From: Mycobacterium pseudokansasii
GTDB taxonomy: Bacteria; Actinomycetota; Actinomycetes; Mycobacteriales; Mycobacteriaceae
Length of the DNA: 64,000 nt
Direction of reading: 5' to 3'
Assembly: GCF_900566075.1 (NCBI RefSeq)
Contig: NZ_UPHU01000001.1
Coordinates: 3,658,325-3,722,324 of the forward strand
Positions 6,570 to 47,316 of the stretch are shown piece by piece; position 1 is the first letter of the stretch; every line of letters begins with the position of its first letter. Both the position numbers and the translations under genes were made by a program. Under the pieces are notes generated by a model. That model was given only the letters and a program-made list of their open reading frames with translations, ran no database searches and was not told where the DNA came from.

Positions 6570-7765
6570 TTGGCTCTCCCGGAGGCGCTCCCGGAGCGAG
6601 CCCGCCGTGCGATGTCCAGCGCCGCCTGCGCCACCTGCCGGGCCGCATCACGGTGTCCCACCTGCGCGGCGGCGGCCGTCATCGCCGCCAGCCGGGGCGG
6701 ATCGGTAAGCAGCCCGGCGACTTCGCGAGCCACCAGGGCCGGGGTGAGGTCGGCGTCGGCGACCACCATGCCGCCGCCGGCGTTGACCACCGGCAGCGCA
6801 TTGAGCCGCTGCTCGCCGTTGCCGATCGGCAGCGGCACATAGATGGCGGGCAGCCCGACGGCGGACACCTCGGCGACCGTCATCGCCCCGGAGCGGCAGA
6901 TAACCAGGTCGGCGGCGGCGTAGGCCAGATCCATCCGGTCCAGATAGGGCACCGCGACATAGGGCGGGTCACCGGCGCCGGGCGTGCGCAGCTCCAAGAC
7001 GTTCTTGGGGCCGGGGGCATGCAAGACGGAAACACCCGCGGCGGCCAGGTCGGCCGCGGCCGCTGACACCGCCCGGTTGAGTGAGACCGCGCCCTGCGAA
7101 CCGCCGAACACCAGCAGCACCCGGGCGTCGTCGGCGAAGCCGAAATGCGCCCGGGCCTCGGCGCGCAGCGCCGCGCGGTCCAGGCCGGTGATGGCCTGCC
7201 GGACCGGAACCCCGACCACCTCGGCGCGGCGCAGCCCGCAATCCGGCACCGCCGACAGCACCCGGTCGGCGCTGCGGGCACCCACCCGGTTGGCCAACCC
7301 GGCCCTGGCGTTGGCCTCGTGGATCACCACCGGGACACGGCGGCCGCGCCCGCGCATGCCGGGGATACCCCGCGCGGCCAGATAGGCGGGCAGCGCGACA
7401 TACCCACCGAAACCGACCACGACGTCGGCGTCGACCGCGTCGAGCACCGCCCGGGTCTCCGCGACGGCACGCCACACCCGCGGCGGCAGCCGGGCCAGGT
7501 CACCACTGGGTTTGCGCGGCAACGGCACCGGAGTGATCAGCTCCAGGTGATAGCCGCGCGCGGGCACCAACGTCGTCTCCAGCCCGCGGGGGGTGCCCAA
7601 CGCGGTGATCCGGACATTCGGCTGCAGAGCGCTGAGTGCATCGGCGACGGCCATCGCGGGCTCCACATGGCCGGCGGTGCCGCCGCCGGCGAGCACGATC
7701 GACAGCGAAGGACCGTAGTCGGTCACCCTCTGCCCACCGGCCGGCTCCCTGACCGAGTCGTTCAC
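6566..7765 (-). CDS. murG: MurG, lipid II-forming GlcNAc transferase
   Basis: Peripheral membrane glycosyltransferase (GT28) that adds GlcNAc from UDP-GlcNAc to lipid I, giving lipid II. The 399-residue product has the first glycine loop GGGTAGH at 27-33, the second FGGSQGA loop in the middle and the acceptor/donor segment GNGEQRLNA with NAGGGMVV. An N-terminal extension of about 20 residues precedes the fold and matches mycobacterial MurG. The GTG start at 7765 overlaps the ftsW stop by 4 bp. Confidence 0.97.
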
Positions 7766-9465
7766 CCGTAACGCTGACCTTCCAATGCCCGAACCCGACC
7801 TGCCTGACGCTGGCCGGCGTAGCGCTGACCCGCTCTATGATGCTCCCCCGCAAGCGGGTGGTGCCCCCGCCCCGGCGCGCGCGCGGTACCCGCGGACCGG
7901 CGAACCGGCCGATCGGCACGGCGCGGCAACGCCGGCCGCGGTGGCTCGCCCGCCTTGCGAATCGCCTTGGGCGTCTTCCGGCCAGCCGGCTGTTTGGCCG
8001 GCTGCGGGTGCGCGCGCTTGCGGTCGCGAAACGCCTCGAGGCGGGTCGGCATGTAGGGCTTGGGTAGCGGTAGCCGCAGCAGTCGGTTCACTGTATCGTC
8101 GCGACCCGCGCGCAGCGCGGCCACCGCCTCGGGTTCATGCCGCGCCGCGTTGGCGATGACGCCGATCATCGACAAGGTGGTGGCCGTCGAGGTGCCACCG
8201 GCCGAGATCAGCGGCAGCTGCAGCCCGGTGACCGGCAGCAGCCCGATCACGTAACCGATGTTGATGAACGCCTGTCCCAGCACCCACAACGTGACGGTGG
8301 CGGTCAACAGCCGCAGAAACGGGTCGGCCGACCGGCGAGCGATCCGCATGCCGGTATAGGCGAACAGCCCGAACAGTCCCAGCAGCCCGAGCGCGCCGAT
8401 GAAGCCGAGCTCCTCCCCGATGATCGCGAAGATGAAGTCGTTGTGGGCGTTGGGCAGATAGTTCCACTTGGCCACACCCTGGCCCAGGCCGTCGCCGAAG
8501 ATTCCACCGTGAGCCAGCGCGAACTTGGCCTGCCGGGCCTGGTAGCCCGAGTCCATCGGGTCGTTGTCGGGATCGAGCCACGACCGCACCCGGTCGGATC
8601 GGTAACCCGCGGTCATCGCCAGGATCGCCGCAGAGATGACGACCGCTGCCAGTGAGCTGGCGAAAACGCGCAGCGGCAACCCCGCATACCACAGCAGCCC
8701 GAGCAGGATGATGCCCATCGACACCGTCTGTCCCAGGTCGGGCTGGGCCACGATCAAGGCCAGCGCCACGACCGCGGCCGGCACCAGCGGAATCAGCATT
8801 TCCCGCAGCGACGCGTGCTCCATCCGCCGGGCCGCCAGCAGATGCGCACCCCAGACCGCGAACGCCATCTTGGTCAGCTCCGACGGCTGCATCGAAAAGC
8901 CCGCCACCACGAACCAGCCGCGGGAACCGTTGGCTTCTTTGCCGATTCCCGGAATCAGCACCAGCACCAACAACACGATGGTGAACGCGAAGGCGGAGAA
9001 GGCGACGCGGCGAAGGAACTGCACCGACATGCGTAACCCGACGTAGCAGCCGGCGAGACCGACGATGGTCCACAAAACCTGCTTGCCGAAGATCACCCAT
9101 GCCGACCCGTCGTCGTCATAGGACCGCACGCCGGAGGCCGAGAGCACCATGATCAGGCCCAGCGTGGTGAGCAGCGCCGCGACGGCGATGATCAGGTGAA
9201 ACGAGGTCATGGGCCGGCCCAGCCAAACGCCGAACCGGGTGCGCGGGCCGGCATCCTCGGGCTTTGCCCGGGATTTGTCGCCGGACTTCTCGCCCGACTT
9301 CTCGCGGGACTTCTCGCCGGTCTGCGCGCCCGGCTGCTTGTCGGGCGAAGCCGCAGCGTCGACCTGCTCGTCAGCCTGGGCCGTCTCCTCCGGCTCGGCC
9401 GGCTCGGCATTGTCGGCATTGCCGGCGTTGCCCCGGCGCTTCAGCCGGGTGAATGCGCTGCGCAC
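7762..9465 (-). CDS. ftsW: FtsW, septal peptidoglycan polymerase (SEDS)
   Basis: SEDS-family glycosyltransferase that polymerises lipid II at the septum together with PbpB. The 567-residue protein has a hydrophilic, charged cytoplasmic N-terminus (1-85), about ten membrane helices (90-450) and a long basic C-terminal tail. Family landmarks include NGSRGWF, QPSEL, AQPDLGQ and [16 protein letters not shown]. It is about 40 residues longer than the M. tuberculosis protein as I recall it. Two places account for this: an EKSG-type repeat in the N-terminal tail (about 50-66) and a C-terminal tail insertion (about 530-545) encoded by an interspersed DNA repeat. Six base pairs separate it from murD. 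Confidence 0.96.
7843..7871 (-). repeat. Interspersed palindromic repeat, copy A, inside ftsW
   Basis: A 29-nt element whose plus-strand core CCCCGCAAGCGGG contains the small palindrome CCCGC-AA-GCGGG, flanked by CT on the left and a GGT/CCCCC segment on the right. It matches the element at 28663-28691 at 26 of 29 positions. It lies in frame in the ftsW tail (codons about 532-541) in the antisense orientation, coding for residues like GHHPLAGEH. Confidence 0.75.
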
Positions 9466-15485: not shown

Positions 15486-16757
15486 CTAGAGCAGCCCGCC
15501 GCGCCCGCTGGTCCCGTCGGCGCCGGCCGGGACGCCCGCACCGCCCCGGCCACCGGCACCGCCGGTGCCCCACAGCAGGGCATTGCCGCCGTTGCCGCCG
15601 CCACCGCCGCCCGCGCGGACCCCCGTAATCGCGCTCAGGCCGCCGGTCCCGCCGGCCCCACCCGCCGCCCCATTGCCGATCAGCCCGGCGTCCCCGCCGG
15701 TGCCGCCCACGCCGCCGATCCCGCCCACCGAGCCCTCGGCGCCGTTTCCACCCGCCCCGCCAGTGCCGCCGCTGCCCCACAAGAGCCCACCGCGGCCGCC
15801 GCCGGCACCGGCCCCGCCCTGCCCGCCGGCGACGGTGCCGTTGCCGCCGTCGCCGCCGTTACCGCCGTCACCGCCGGCACCTCCGGTGCCGAACAACCAA
15901 CCGGCGGCACCGCCGGCACCGCCGGCACCACCGGTGGCGCCCGCGGTGAACGACCTTCCGCTCGACCCGCCGTCGCCACCGGCACCGCCGTTTCCGCTCA
16001 CGAAGCCCCCATGCCCGCCGTTACCACCGGCCGCGCCCGCGGTGGGCACGCCGAGACCGGCACTGCCACCGTTGCCACCGGCACCGCCATGACCCCACAG
16101 CCAGGCGTTGCCGCCAGCGCCGCCGGCACCGGCCACCCCGTTCGAGGTACCCGCCCCGCCCGCGCCGCCGACACCGCCACTGCCGAACAACCATCCGCCG
16201 TCGCCGCCCCGGCCGCCGGCGCCGGTGTTGGCGCCAGCGCCGCCGGCTCCGCCGTTGCCGATCAGTCCGGCAGCGCCGCCGTTGCCGCCGGCGGGGTGGC
16301 TGCCGTTCCCCGGGCCGCCGTTGCCCCCATTGCCGAAGAGCAAACCGCCGGCCCCCCCGTCTCGCCCCGAAGCCCCGTTTGCCCCGTCGCCGATCAATGG
16401 CCGCCCCAACAGAGCCAGGGTGGGAGCGTTGACCACATCCAACAGGCCCGCGATCGGCGACTGCAGCGCTGCCGCGCCGATCGCCTCGACACCGGCATAT
16501 GAGCTGGCAGCCGCGTTCAGGGCGAGCACGAACTGGTCGTGAAAGACCGCCGCCCGCGCGCTGAGGGCCTGGAAACCATCGCCATGAGCACCGAACAAGG
16601 CCGCAAGGGCGGTGGAGATCTCGTCGGCGGCCGCGGCCAGCACATTCGTCGTGGGCGCCGCCGCAGCCGCACTCGCCGCGGTGACGGTGGACCCGATGCC
16701 CGTCAACTCCGTTGCTGCGGCGGCCAGCTGCGAAGGGATCGTGACGACCAATGACAT
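15486..16757 (-). CDS. PE_PGRS family protein (PE_PGRS38-like)
   Basis: Surface or secreted PE family protein of slow-growing mycobacteria; function unknown. The 423-residue product has a PE domain at the N-terminus ([11 protein letters not shown], about 1-95), the linker [11 protein letters not shown], and then a PGRS domain of about 300 residues made of GGAGG/NGG-type repeats with interspersed WLFG/LLWG/GLIG units. The ATG at 16757 follows GGGGAGG and gives the canonical PE start; an upstream in-frame start at 16772 is ignored. It is co-directional between pbpB (84 bp upstream) and murE, so it interrupts an otherwise conserved cell-wall operon. The C-terminus ends abruptly after the repeats (GRGGLL) with no extra domain. 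Confidence 0.93.
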
Positions 16758-25362: not shown

Positions 25363-26493
<1,131 letters not shown>

Positions 26494-26497
26494 ACCG

Positions 26498-28039
26498 ATG
26501 ACCAGTGCGACGCCCCCGCCGGAAGCTGATTCCGCGACGAAAATGTCAGTGAGCCAACGTATTTCACGATTTCGTGCATTCGCCGGCACCCCGCAGGCCA
26601 AACCCGCCTGGCTGGGTTTCCTGGGGGCTGTGCTGATCACCGCGGGAGGGTTGGGAGCCGGCAGCACCCGCCAGCATGACCCGCTGCTGGAGACGATTCA
26701 CATGTCGTGGCTGCGCTTCGGCCACGGGCTGGTGGTGTCGTCGATCGTGTTGTGGTTGGGCGTGGGCGTGATGCTGATCGCGTGGCTGTGGCTGGGCCGA
26801 CAAGTCCTCACCGGCGAAGCAACCGAGTTCACCATGCGTGCCACCACCGCATTCTGGCTGGCGCCACTGCTGCTGTCGGTGCCGGTCTTCAGCCGCGACA
26901 CCTATTCCTACCTGGCCCAGGGCGCACTGTTGCGCGACGGCCTGGATCCCTATGCGGTAGGGCCGGTGGGTAACCCGAATGCGTTGCTGGACGACGTGAG
27001 CCCGATCTGGACGATCACCACCGCCCCCTACGGTCCGGCGTTCATTCTGGTGGCCAAGCTCGTGACGATTATCGTCGGCAACAACGTGGTCGCCGGGACC
27101 ATGCTGTTGCGCTTGTGCATGCTGCCCGGGCTGGCGCTGTTGATTTGGGCGGCCCCGCGCCTGGCACGTCACCTCGGCGCCGACGGCGCCACCGCGCTGT
27201 GGACCTGCGTGCTCAACCCACTGGTGCTCATCCATCTGATGGGTGGAGTGCACAACGAGATGCTGATGGTCGGCCTGATGGCCGCCGGCATCGCGCTCAC
27301 CATGCAGCGTCGCCATGTCGCGGGCATCACGCTGATCACGGTGGCGATCGCGGTCAAAGCCACGGCCGGGCTGGCGCTGCCGTTCCTGTTCTGGGTATGG
27401 ATGCGGCATCTGCGCGATGGCCGGGGGTACCGGCCGATTCACGCGTTCCTGGCAGCCGCCGCAGCGTCGCTGCTGATATTCGTGGCGGTGTTCGCGGTGC
27501 TGTCCGCGGTGGCCGGCGTCGGAGTGGGGTGGCTCACGGCGCTGGCGGGCTCGGTGAAGATCATCAACTGGTTGACTGTGCCGACGGGAGCGGCGAACCT
27601 GATCCACGCCCTGGGCAGCAACTTCTTCACCATCGACTTCTACACCTTGCTGCGGGTAACCAGGTTCATCGGAATTCTGATCATCGCGGTGTCGCTGCCG
27701 CTGTTGTGGTGGCGGTTCCGGCGCGACGACCGGGCGGTGCTGGCCGGCATCGCGTGGTCGATGCTGATCGTGGTGTTGTTCGTCCCCGCCGCCCTGCCGT
27801 GGTACTACTCCTGGCCACTGGCGATAGTGGCCCCACTGGCCCAGTCACGGCCGGCTGTCGCGGCTATCGCCGGGTTCTCGACCTGGGTCATGGTGATCTT
27901 CAAACCCGACGGTTCACACGGCATGTATTCCTGGCTGCACGTCGGGTTTGCGACCGCGTTCGCGCTGCTGGCCTGGTATTCGTTGTACCGGGTGCCGGAG
28001 CCGGCTGCCCCAAGGGACGCAACGGAACCCGCTCGATAA
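26498..28039 (+). CDS. mptA: Alpha-1,6-mannopyranosyltransferase MptA
   Basis: Polyprenyl-phosphomannose-dependent GT-C transferase that extends the alpha-1,6-mannan backbone of lipomannan and lipoarabinomannan on the outer face of the membrane. The 513-residue product has about 13 membrane helices and the conserved loop SVPVFSRDTYSYLAQGALL (about 130-148), followed by GLDPYAVGP. The start is ATG 26498, 4 bp after the idsA2 stop. Its TAA stop (28037-28039) lies in the first unit of a tandem repeat array shared with the convergent Rv2175c gene. Confidence 0.92.
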   Translation: MTSATPPPEADSATKMSVSQRISRFRAFAGTPQAKPAWLGFLGAVLITAGGLGAGSTRQHDPLLETIHMSWLRFGHGLVVSSIVLWLGVGVMLIAWLWLGRQVLTGEATEFTMRATTAFWLAPLLLSVPVFSRDTYSYLAQGALLRDGLDPYAVGPVGNPNALLDDVSPIWTITTAPYGPAFILVAKLVTIIVGNNVVAGTMLLRLCMLPGLALLIWAAPRLARHLGADGATALWTCVLNPLVLIHLMGGVHNEMLMVGLMAAGIALTMQRRHVAGITLITVAIAVKATAGLALPFLFWVWMRHLRDGRGYRPIHAFLAAAAASLLIFVAVFAVLSAVAGVGVGWLTALAGSVKIINWLTVPTGAANLIHALGSNFFTIDFYTLLRVTRFIGILIIAVSLPLLWWRFRRDDRAVLAGIAWSMLIVVLFVPAALPWYYSWPLAIVAPLAQSRPAVAAIAGFSTWVMVIFKPDGSHGMYSWLHVGFATAFALLAWYSLYRVPEPAAPRDATEPAR

Positions 28040-28177
28040 GCCCTCAATAAGCCGTCAATAAGCCGTCAATAGGCCCTCAATAAGCCGTCAATAGGCCTCA
28101 ATAGGCCTCAATAGGCCTCAATAGGCCTCAATAGGCCTCAATAGGCCTCAATAGGCCTCAATAGGCCTCAATAGGCC
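28036..28177. repeat. 11-bp/10-bp tandem repeat array between mptA and Rv2175c
   Basis: Five 11-bp units of the form ATAAGCCGTCA with small variations (28036-28090) are followed by eight perfect 10-bp units ATAGGCCTCA (28091-28170) and a partial copy (28171-28177). The array fills the whole convergent intergenic space. The mptA TAA (28037-28039) lies in the first unit and the Rv2175c TGA (28168-28170) in the last full one. Confidence 0.95.
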
Positions 28178-28572
28178 ATAGCCTGGGCGCGACGCACGAC
28201 TTCGCGCGCCTGGTGGGCGTGGAGCGCATCGACCGGGCGCGCATTGTTCACGACATCGCGTGAGCCATCGCGGGTAATGATCAGCGACGGGTCGGGGGTG
28301 AACAGCCAGCGCACGATCTCGGTATCGCGATAGCCGCCGTCGTGCAGGATTGTCAACAGTCCCGGCAGGCTCTTGACCACCTGGCCGGATTTCGTGAAGA
28401 ACACTTGCGGCACCACTACGCCGCCGGCGCGCCGCACCGCGACCAGGTGACCTTCGCGCAGCTGCTGGTGCACCTTGCTGATCGACACACCGAGAAGTTC
28501 GGCGACCCGGGGCAGGTCGTAGGTTGGCTCGTTGGGATCCAGAACATCATCGCCGGCCGGAATGCTGCCCAC
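28168..28572 (-). CDS. Winged-helix DNA-binding protein, PknL substrate (Rv2175c-like)
   Basis: DNA-binding regulator of 134 residues; the M. tuberculosis homologue is phosphorylated by PknL, which abolishes DNA binding. It has a helix-turn-helix near the N-terminus (YDLPRVAELLGVSISKVHQQLREG, about 18-41) and a conserved C-terminal region with LLTILHDGGYRDTEIVRWLF. The start is GTG 28572, giving M-G-S-I-P-A-G-D-D. It is divergent from pknL across 65 bp, fitting the kinase-substrate pair. Its last codon and stop (TAT TGA) fall in the tandem array. Confidence 0.9.
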   Translation of the reverse strand: MGSIPAGDDVLDPNEPTYDLPRVAELLGVSISKVHQQLREGHLVAVRRAGGVVVPQVFFTKSGQVVKSLPGLLTILHDGGYRDTEIVRWLFTPDPSLIITRDGSRDVVNNARPVDALHAHQAREVVRRAQAMAY

Positions 28573-28640: not shown

Positions 28641-29924
28641 GCTGAAGCTGAAGTGCCCGGCTCTCCCCCGCAAGCGGGAGGTACCCCCACCTCGGGCCGT
28701 GCCGGCCCGCATCGTCACCGAGCCGAAGCCGGCACCCCGGATCCGTTGGACAGCACGCTGCTGGACGGCCGCTACCTGGTCCAGGCCAAGATCGCCAGCG
28801 GCGGGACCTCGACGGTCTACCGCGGTCTTGACGTCCGGCTGGACCGCCCCGTCGCCCTGAAGGTGATGGACTCCCGCTATGCGGGCGACAAACAGTTCCT
28901 CACCCGCTTCCAACTCGAGGCGCGCACGGTCGCCCGGTTAAAGAATCACGGCCTGGTTGCGGTCTATGACCAGGGGCTGGATGCCCGGCACCCATTTCTG
29001 GTGATGGAACTCGTCGAAGGCGGCACGCTGCGCGAACTGCTGGCCGAACGAGGACCGATGCCCCCACATGCGGTGGTCGCCGTACTGCGTCCGGTGCTGG
29101 GCGGGCTGGCCGCCGCGCATCGGGCCGGCCTGGTGCACCGCGACGTCAAGCCCGAAAACGTGTTGATCTCCGATGACGGCGAGGTCAAGATCGCCGATTT
29201 CGGATTGGTCCGGGCCGTCGCCGCCGCTGGAATCACTTCGGCCAGCATCATTTTGGGCACCGCGGCGTATTTGTCTCCCGAGCAGGTCCGCGACGGCCAG
29301 GCCGGCCCCCGCAGCGATGTCTACTCGGCCGGAATTCTCACCTACGAGTTGCTGACCGCGCAGACGCCATTCAGCGGCGACTCGGCATTGTCGATCGCCT
29401 ATCAACGGCTGGACCGCGACGTGCCGCTACCTAGCTCTGTAATCGATGGTGTGCCAACGCAATTCGACGAATTTGTGGCCTGCGCGACCGCCCGTGACCC
29501 TGCCAAGAGGTACGCCGACGCCATCGAAATGGGCGCCGATCTCGAGTCCATCGCCGAGGAGCTGGCACTTCCGGACTTTCGGGTGCCCGCGCCGCACAAT
29601 TCGGCCCAGCACCGGTCGGCCGTGCTGCATCATAGCCGGCAGCAGCCGCGGCCACCGGTTCGCCACCCGACTCGCGAACTGACCCGAGAACCGGGGAGCT
29701 GGGCCGAGCCGGTATCTGCGGCCCGGCCGGATGCCGAACCGGAAGAATACGAATACCAGCCGGTGTCAGGGCAATTCGCCGGCATCTCGATGGACGAATT
29801 CGTCTGGGCGCGACAGCATTCCCGCCGCGTGGTGCTGATCTGGGTGGCGGTGGTGCTCGCGATCACCGGGCTGGTCGCGACCGCGGCTTGGACGATCGGC
29901 AGCAATCTGAGCGGACTGCTTTAG
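28638..29924 (+). CDS. pknL: Serine/threonine protein kinase PknL
   Basis: Membrane-anchored eukaryotic-type kinase of 428 residues. It has an N-terminal extension (1-38), a glycine loop IASGGTSTVYRG (52-63), the ATP lysine in VALKVMD (about 75), the catalytic HRD (167-169) with KPEN, DFG (187-189), and LGTAAYLSPEQV in the activation segment. A juxtamembrane region rich in P, R and E follows, then a C-terminal membrane helix (about 398-418) and a very short outside tail, with no PASTA domains. Compared with M. tuberculosis PknL as I recall it, about 30 extra residues sit at the N-terminus; part is encoded by an interspersed DNA repeat (28663-28691). It is divergent from its substrate gene and convergent with aroG. 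Confidence 0.95.
   Translation: MAEAEVPGSPPQAGGTPTSGRAGPHRHRAEAGTPDPLDSTLLDGRYLVQAKIASGGTSTVYRGLDVRLDRPVALKVMDSRYAGDKQFLTRFQLEARTVARLKNHGLVAVYDQGLDARHPFLVMELVEGGTLRELLAERGPMPPHAVVAVLRPVLGGLAAAHRAGLVHRDVKPENVLISDDGEVKIADFGLVRAVAAAGITSASIILGTAAYLSPEQVRDGQAGPRSDVYSAGILTYELLTAQTPFSGDSALSIAYQRLDRDVPLPSSVIDGVPTQFDEFVACATARDPAKRYADAIEMGADLESIAEELALPDFRVPAPHNSAQHRSAVLHHSRQQPRPPVRHPTRELTREPGSWAEPVSAARPDAEPEEYEYQPVSGQFAGISMDEFVWARQHSRRVVLIWVAVVLAITGLVATAAWTIGSNLSGLL
28663..28691 (+). repeat. Interspersed palindromic repeat, copy B, inside pknL
   Basis: A 29-nt element with core CCCCGCAAGCGGG, 26 of 29 positions identical to copy A in ftsW (7843-7871). It lies in frame near the pknL start (codons about 9-18) and is read as SPPQAGGTPT. 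Confidence 0.75.
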
Positions 29925-29938
29925 CGGTATGGTGGGGA

Positions 29939-29984
29939 GACGCAAAAGCCCCCAAAACCGTTGCGTTTTGGGGGCTTTTGCGTC
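29939..29984. terminator. Bidirectional terminator between pknL and aroG
   Basis: Perfect 20-bp inverted repeat (29939-29958 with 29965-29984) around a 6-base loop, with stem centre AAAAGCCCCC/GGGGGCTTTT and the downstream flank TGCTCG. It lies between convergent stops. The same GCCCCC stem with a GTCTGCTCG-type flank recurs after fadD15 and, altered, after asnB. Confidence 0.9.
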
Positions 29985-29995
29985 TGCTCGCCGAC

Positions 29996-32024
<2,029 letters not shown>

Positions 32025-47282: not shown

Positions 47283-47316
47283 CCCCGAACAGGCATGAAC
47301 CCCGAACAGGCATGAA
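47283..47316 (+). repeat. 17-bp tandem duplication before qcrC
   Basis: Two exact copies of CCCCGAACAGGCATGAA (47283-47299 and 47300-47316) lie between the ctaE stop and the qcrC start. Each contains an ATG that is not the likely start. Confidence 0.8.

Follow-up and report, generated by a model that had tools for sequence, protein, structure and literature searches.

The closest described relatives of the locus analyzed here are the bacterial minisatellites of VNTR type, the MIRU elements, and convergent genes with overlapping ends. MIRUs are intergenic units of mycobacterial genomes that overlap the stop and start codons of neighboring genes. According to the part of PMC2734929 consulted, they occupy 41 places in M. 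tuberculosis H37Rv; the same part ties the repeat length of M. tuberculosis Mtb-fpg1 to the expression of a DNA repair gene. In the accessible text of PMC5849605, the genome of M. kansasii ATCC 12478 is credited with 1,447 tandem repeats and 17 typed VNTR loci, and VNTR 19, 20, and 24, whose units do not exceed 20 bp, are described as differing in copy number between M. kansasii subtypes. For convergent overlapping genes, the accessible part of PMC2174442 describes tetramers, CTAG or TTAA for example, in which both genes terminate.

Like members of the VNTR class, the array reported here consists of short units joined head to tail in a mycobacterial genome, and like MIRUs it is intergenic. It differs from MIRUs, which are longer and scattered, by a unit of 10-11 bp, the exact double form of which exists at one locus only, without dispersed exact copies at many loci of its own genome. 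Its relatives resemble convergent overlapping genes, with tail-to-tail overlaps of 4, 7, and 14 bp; unlike in the cases treated in the consulted part of PMC2174442, the shared stop is multiplied in the window and the genes stand apart. The word tandem is absent from the main text of that paper, and the term mptA from the main text of PMC5849605, the locus tables of which are in supplements outside the search. In the literature searched, with most subscription journals and supplements lying outside it, no account of the locus or of shared-stop repeats was found. The array itself is of a known kind, a minisatellite of VNTR type, and its distinguishing trait is a unit consisting of a two-way stop from a former gene overlap.

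Results

In the window (the whole 64-kb stretch of DNA analyzed), 14 near-identical modules of the pattern TCRATARGCC are arranged head to tail from 28033 to 28177, between the convergent genes mptA (+) and Rv2175c (-) (Table 1). Five steps of 11 bp connect the module starts at 28033, 28044, 28055, 28066, 28077, and 28088, followed by eight steps of 10 bp carrying the starts from 28098 to 28168. The initial annotation had described five 11-bp units followed by eight perfect 10-bp units; the array is real and its five 11-bp steps stand, the identical 10-mers numbering nine instead of eight. Its placement of the mptA TAA in the first unit (28037-28039) and of the Rv2175c TGA in the last was confirmed from the sequence.

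Table 1. Coordinates of the array, its flanking genes, and the control junction (positions within the window)
Feature	Position	Strand	Basis or remark
mptA homologue (alpha-1,6-mannopyranosyltransferase A)	26333..28039	+	open frame limits; NCBIfam TIGR03459
Five 11-bp modules	28033..28087		first = coding end of mptA (TCGATAAGCC)
Nine identical 10-bp modules TCAATAGGCC	28088..28177		head to tail, all perfect; hairpin ladder possible on either strand
Rv2175c TGA stop	28168..28170	-	complement of TCA in last module
Rv2175c homologue (winged-helix DNA-binding protein)	28168..28572	-	open frame and Pfam; ends RAQAMAY*
CCATAG, site of mptA TAG in 14-bp-overlap relatives	28176..28181	+	persists here inside Rv2175c
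Control convergent junction pknL/aroG	29924..29996		repeat not significant in window (p 0.47)

Tandem Repeats Finder reported the array at 28042-28177 with a period of 10, 13.2 copies, 93% matches, and a score of 215, the highest of 75 rows in the window. As chromosomal background, 19 stretches of 20 kb each (380 kb) were sampled from the same chromosome, in which the best array of period 8-14 scored 131 (9-bp unit, 73% matches). Given this difference between 131 and 215 for the period range 8-14, the array is not a chance occurrence; in the same sample, 215 is exceeded by six rows with longer periods, from 18 to 432 bp. An exact search for the 20-base double unit in 198 genomes of the genus returned only the window's own genome, with eight occurrences, all at the array; exact matches were absent from the other 197 genomes and from the rest of its own genome. 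A dispersed repeat family, considered as a candidate, was rejected on the basis of this confinement of the exact double unit to one locus.

Further repeats were seen at other places. A perfect 17-bp tandem duplication (CCCCGAACAGGCATGAA x2, score 68 in Tandem Repeats Finder) lies at 47283-47316 of the window, and dense GC-rich repeats, many with a period of 9, fill 15583-16326, presumably resembling PE_PGRS-like genes. The locus L160 carries at 7292-8552 a 432-bp tandem repeat (2.9 copies, 99% matches), which we take to resemble the long repeats of PPE-type genes.

The upstream neighbor was identified as mptA by the NCBIfam MptA equivalog TIGR03459, matched on 26498-28036 with 656 bits (cut-off 439). 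Rv2175c matched both Pfam Rv2175c domains, while the NCBIfam search gave no match; its Rv number is a borrowed name, the host not being M. tuberculosis. The window's genome comprises 6,425,786 bases in two contigs. Its Rv2175c is closest, among named relatives, to those of M. ostraviense (97%), M. gastri and M. innocens (both 96%), and M. attenuatum (95%), and in the DNA tree the window groups with the rows of these relatives and G158 (six rows, SH-aLRT 99). Judged from these sequences, the host belongs to the M. kansasii complex and is distinct from M. tuberculosis, which has a genome of 4.4 Mb. The second contig (117,445 bases) is probably a plasmid, as judged from its first 20 kb. In a search from which entries of the window's own genome may be absent, these gave 10 matching plasmid records, each covering 80% or less of the stretch, and the M. 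intracellulare plasmid NZ_CP023152.1 covered 35% at 80% identity in a helicase-related region.

For comparison across the genus, we collected 97 unique mptA/Rv2175c junctions whose gap or overlap did not exceed 150 bp, excluding loci without an mptA match, L089 (277 bp, containing N, a likely assembly join), and L009 (634 bp). In L009 (863-1498, genome G029), a 634-bp insert, perhaps a mobile-element remnant, parts the two stops. The junctions fall into a 14-bp overlap class (37), a 7-bp class (11), a 4-bp class (8), longer overlaps (3), and junctions with a gap (38). The stops of the window, separated by 128 bp, do not overlap, unlike those of 59 of the 97 junctions. In all 11 junctions of the 7-bp class, a single TCARTAR heptamer, read by eye, is common to both stops. 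In the 14-bp class, the mptA TAG sits within Rv2175c as CATAG, a motif that all 37 junctions of this class carry, versus 8 of 38 with a gap. Since TCA reads TGA on the other strand and the following TAA or TAG ends the + frame, TCAATAR constitutes a two-way stop.

By parsimony on a midpoint-rooted tree, the three nearest ancestors of the window's clade (8, 7, and 6 rows) had a gap, and the 14-bp overlap was reconstructed at three ancestors lying deeper (39, 35, and 29 rows); the root state is ambiguous, and the 39-row ancestor has a support of 53. Because the end of Rv2175c is also the end of mptA in the 14-bp overlap (37 of 97 junctions, and the ancestors reconstructed by parsimony), the array unit corresponds to the shared two-way stop. 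The likeness of the unit to the end of Rv2175c, pointed out in the initial annotation, holds and is refined thereby: the same end terminates mptA in overlapping relatives as well.

Tandem repeats at p<=0.01, with periods of 10-13 bp, were found in 11 of the 97 junctions, the remaining 86 being without a significant repeat. Rv2175c ends with MAY* in all 11 repeat-bearing junctions, and in 10 of them the repeat extends to the Rv2175c stop end, the exception being L014 (read from strings); the window's own repeat exceeded the 120-base frame and its extent was taken from the module positions instead. On the tree, at fewest 10 changes of the repeat label are needed, at least nine of them forced by starred branches; this label is a threshold, leaving L004, L122, and L002 unlabeled despite two to three modules, and the changes may be losses.

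As a control, the convergent junction pknL/aroG was compared at 75 loci with gaps under 900 bp and both junctions present. Repeats at p<=0.01 occurred in 10 of 75 mptA/Rv2175c junctions versus 3 of 75 pknL/aroG junctions (p 0.08 by Fisher's test and 0.09 in the paired test, both without correction for relatedness); L090 and L114 (p 0.00998), among those ten, failed on the rerun with 97 junctions, and L014 passed only on this rerun. Five other control segments gave 0, 5, 0, 1, and 3 of 97 at p<=0.01. The segment with five, taken from the mptA coding region, reached 30 of 97 at p<=0.05, above the 20 of 97 of the junction itself, and common coding repeats may be the cause of this excess. The excess of repeats at mptA/Rv2175c over the control junction is suggestive but falls short of proof.

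One of the three control matches deserves its own description. At pknL/aroG of L056, the end of aroG shows by eye an 8-bp stop-segment repeat in three copies (CCTAGTCG), the third with one change (score 14.5, period 8), adjoined by a strong inverted repeat. This case hints that a similar event took place at another convergent junction and that the process is general.

On either strand, the RNA is predicted to fold into successive AGGCCU stems, a ladder in which CAAU or AUUG form the internal loops. The underlying palindrome AGGCCT is present eight times, the first starting at 28093 and the last ending at 28168, and is confined to the 10-bp part, which is the uniform part of the array. The fold energy per base amounts to -0.45 and -0.51 kcal/mol in this part, in comparison to -0.08 and -0.20 in the 11-bp part. 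None of 200 dinucleotide shuffles folded as well on either strand (z -4.6 and -3.6). Nine-copy arrays of permuted units did so in 91 of 600 cases (+) and 129 of 600 cases (-); with 15-22% of permuted units folding equally, the fold strength derives largely from being a repeat with a small palindrome. Rfam returned no family at its gathering score and two at E<=1 (purD, 23.9 bits vs 41; mir-345, 18 vs 65).

These folds bear on the question of whether the array terminates transcription from both sides or stabilizes RNA 3' ends, its AGGCCU ladders stopping converging polymerases or protecting both mRNAs. A stable hairpin is predicted, surpassing all shuffles on both strands, and the part of PMC8355165 consulted puts forward clusters of hairpins lacking U trails as terminators. 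However, the hairpin is matched by the above fraction of unit permutations, no U-tract follows it, the array contains no site resembling a terminator with a T run (two such sites elsewhere in the 2 kb scanned, vs 1.1 expected), and 86 of the 97 junctions are without a significant repeat. We therefore regard this role as unlikely.

Low-copy versions of the array exist in relatives, where the initial annotation had suggested looking for a single-copy ancestral sequence. The junctions of M. ostraviense, M. gastri, and M. attenuatum contain two modules each, that of M. innocens (G091) four with a period of 12, and that of G158 two by pattern or three by eye. Copy number thus differs between the species of the M. 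kansasii complex, with one genome per species, from 2 to the 14 modules of the window. Repeats of different sequence and period occupy the same junction in other lineages. In a well-supported sister trio, M. scrofulaceum E3039 (L069) has one module, M. sp. E1747 (L050) two, and G001 (L006) three of 13 bp; M. sp. IS-836 (L057) has 2.6 copies of 10 bp and its sister G116 (L019) one module. G360 carries three to four modules of 10 bp, and G026 2.5 copies of 11 bp by score or more, degenerate ones by eye. As the periods among relatives at this place are 10, 11, 12, and 13 bp, the idea that a 10-bp period carries special meaning as about one helical turn, raised in the initial annotation, was dropped.

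The range of 2 to 14 modules across the clade would also suit a contingency locus, in which copy number tunes the expression of mptA or Rv2175c, and Mtb-fpg1 offers a precedent in the consulted part of PMC2734929. Yet the Mtb-fpg1 repeat is located upstream of its gene, whereas the present array is downstream of both genes, and the same 86 junctions show no significant repeat; we judge such tuning to be less probable still than a role in termination.

An assembly error in the exact copy number is very improbable: perfect short repeats are easily miscounted and the count rests on one assembly of the species, but an array of ~145 bp is within reach of ordinary sequencing reads, lies inside a 6.3-Mb contig, and has counterparts in other assemblies (M. 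innocens, G001, and G360).

Discussion

We consider it probable, and with good confidence, that the array is a VNTR-like minisatellite grown by tandem duplication of the two-way stop segment. The reading is based on the overlap in relatives, the module series, the unchanged end of Rv2175c, and the repeats in several lineages, all of which are observed. From these we infer an origin in which duplication parts the genes and copy number, then invisible to the proteins, drifts. After duplication of the shared end, mptA would stop in the first copy while the Rv2175c stop stays in the last, and the duplication would separate the formerly overlapping genes. Translation of both strands ends within this shared segment, and its duplication would therefore be silent for both proteins. 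Later gains or losses of copies would likewise leave both proteins unaltered, so that copy number would be free to drift by replication slippage, and no function would be required.

The switch from the 11-bp to the 10-bp unit would have made the 6-bp palindrome AGGCCT, and slippage in the 10-bp part may have been helped by hairpins. Recent, hairpin-aided slippage fits the finding that only the hairpin-capable 10-bp part is perfectly uniform. The initial annotation had proposed growth by slippage from the 3' end of Rv2175c; slippage remains the best reading, and the source becomes the end common to mptA and Rv2175c.

In a wider and more tentative sense, tail-to-tail overlaps might serve as a nursery of minisatellites. 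Duplicating a shared end would be silent for both proteins, overlapping pairs would repeatedly separate and seed arrays, and such arrays could later be usable as two-way hairpin terminators, maybe beyond mptA/Rv2175c. We offer this generalization as a speculation that is rather doubtful at present. Repeated origin at one junction would be neat more than very surprising.

For the M. kansasii complex, the array is a candidate typing marker. For the biology of these genomes, it suggests a concrete and testable route by which overlapping convergent genes may become separate genes and an intergenic minisatellite may begin.
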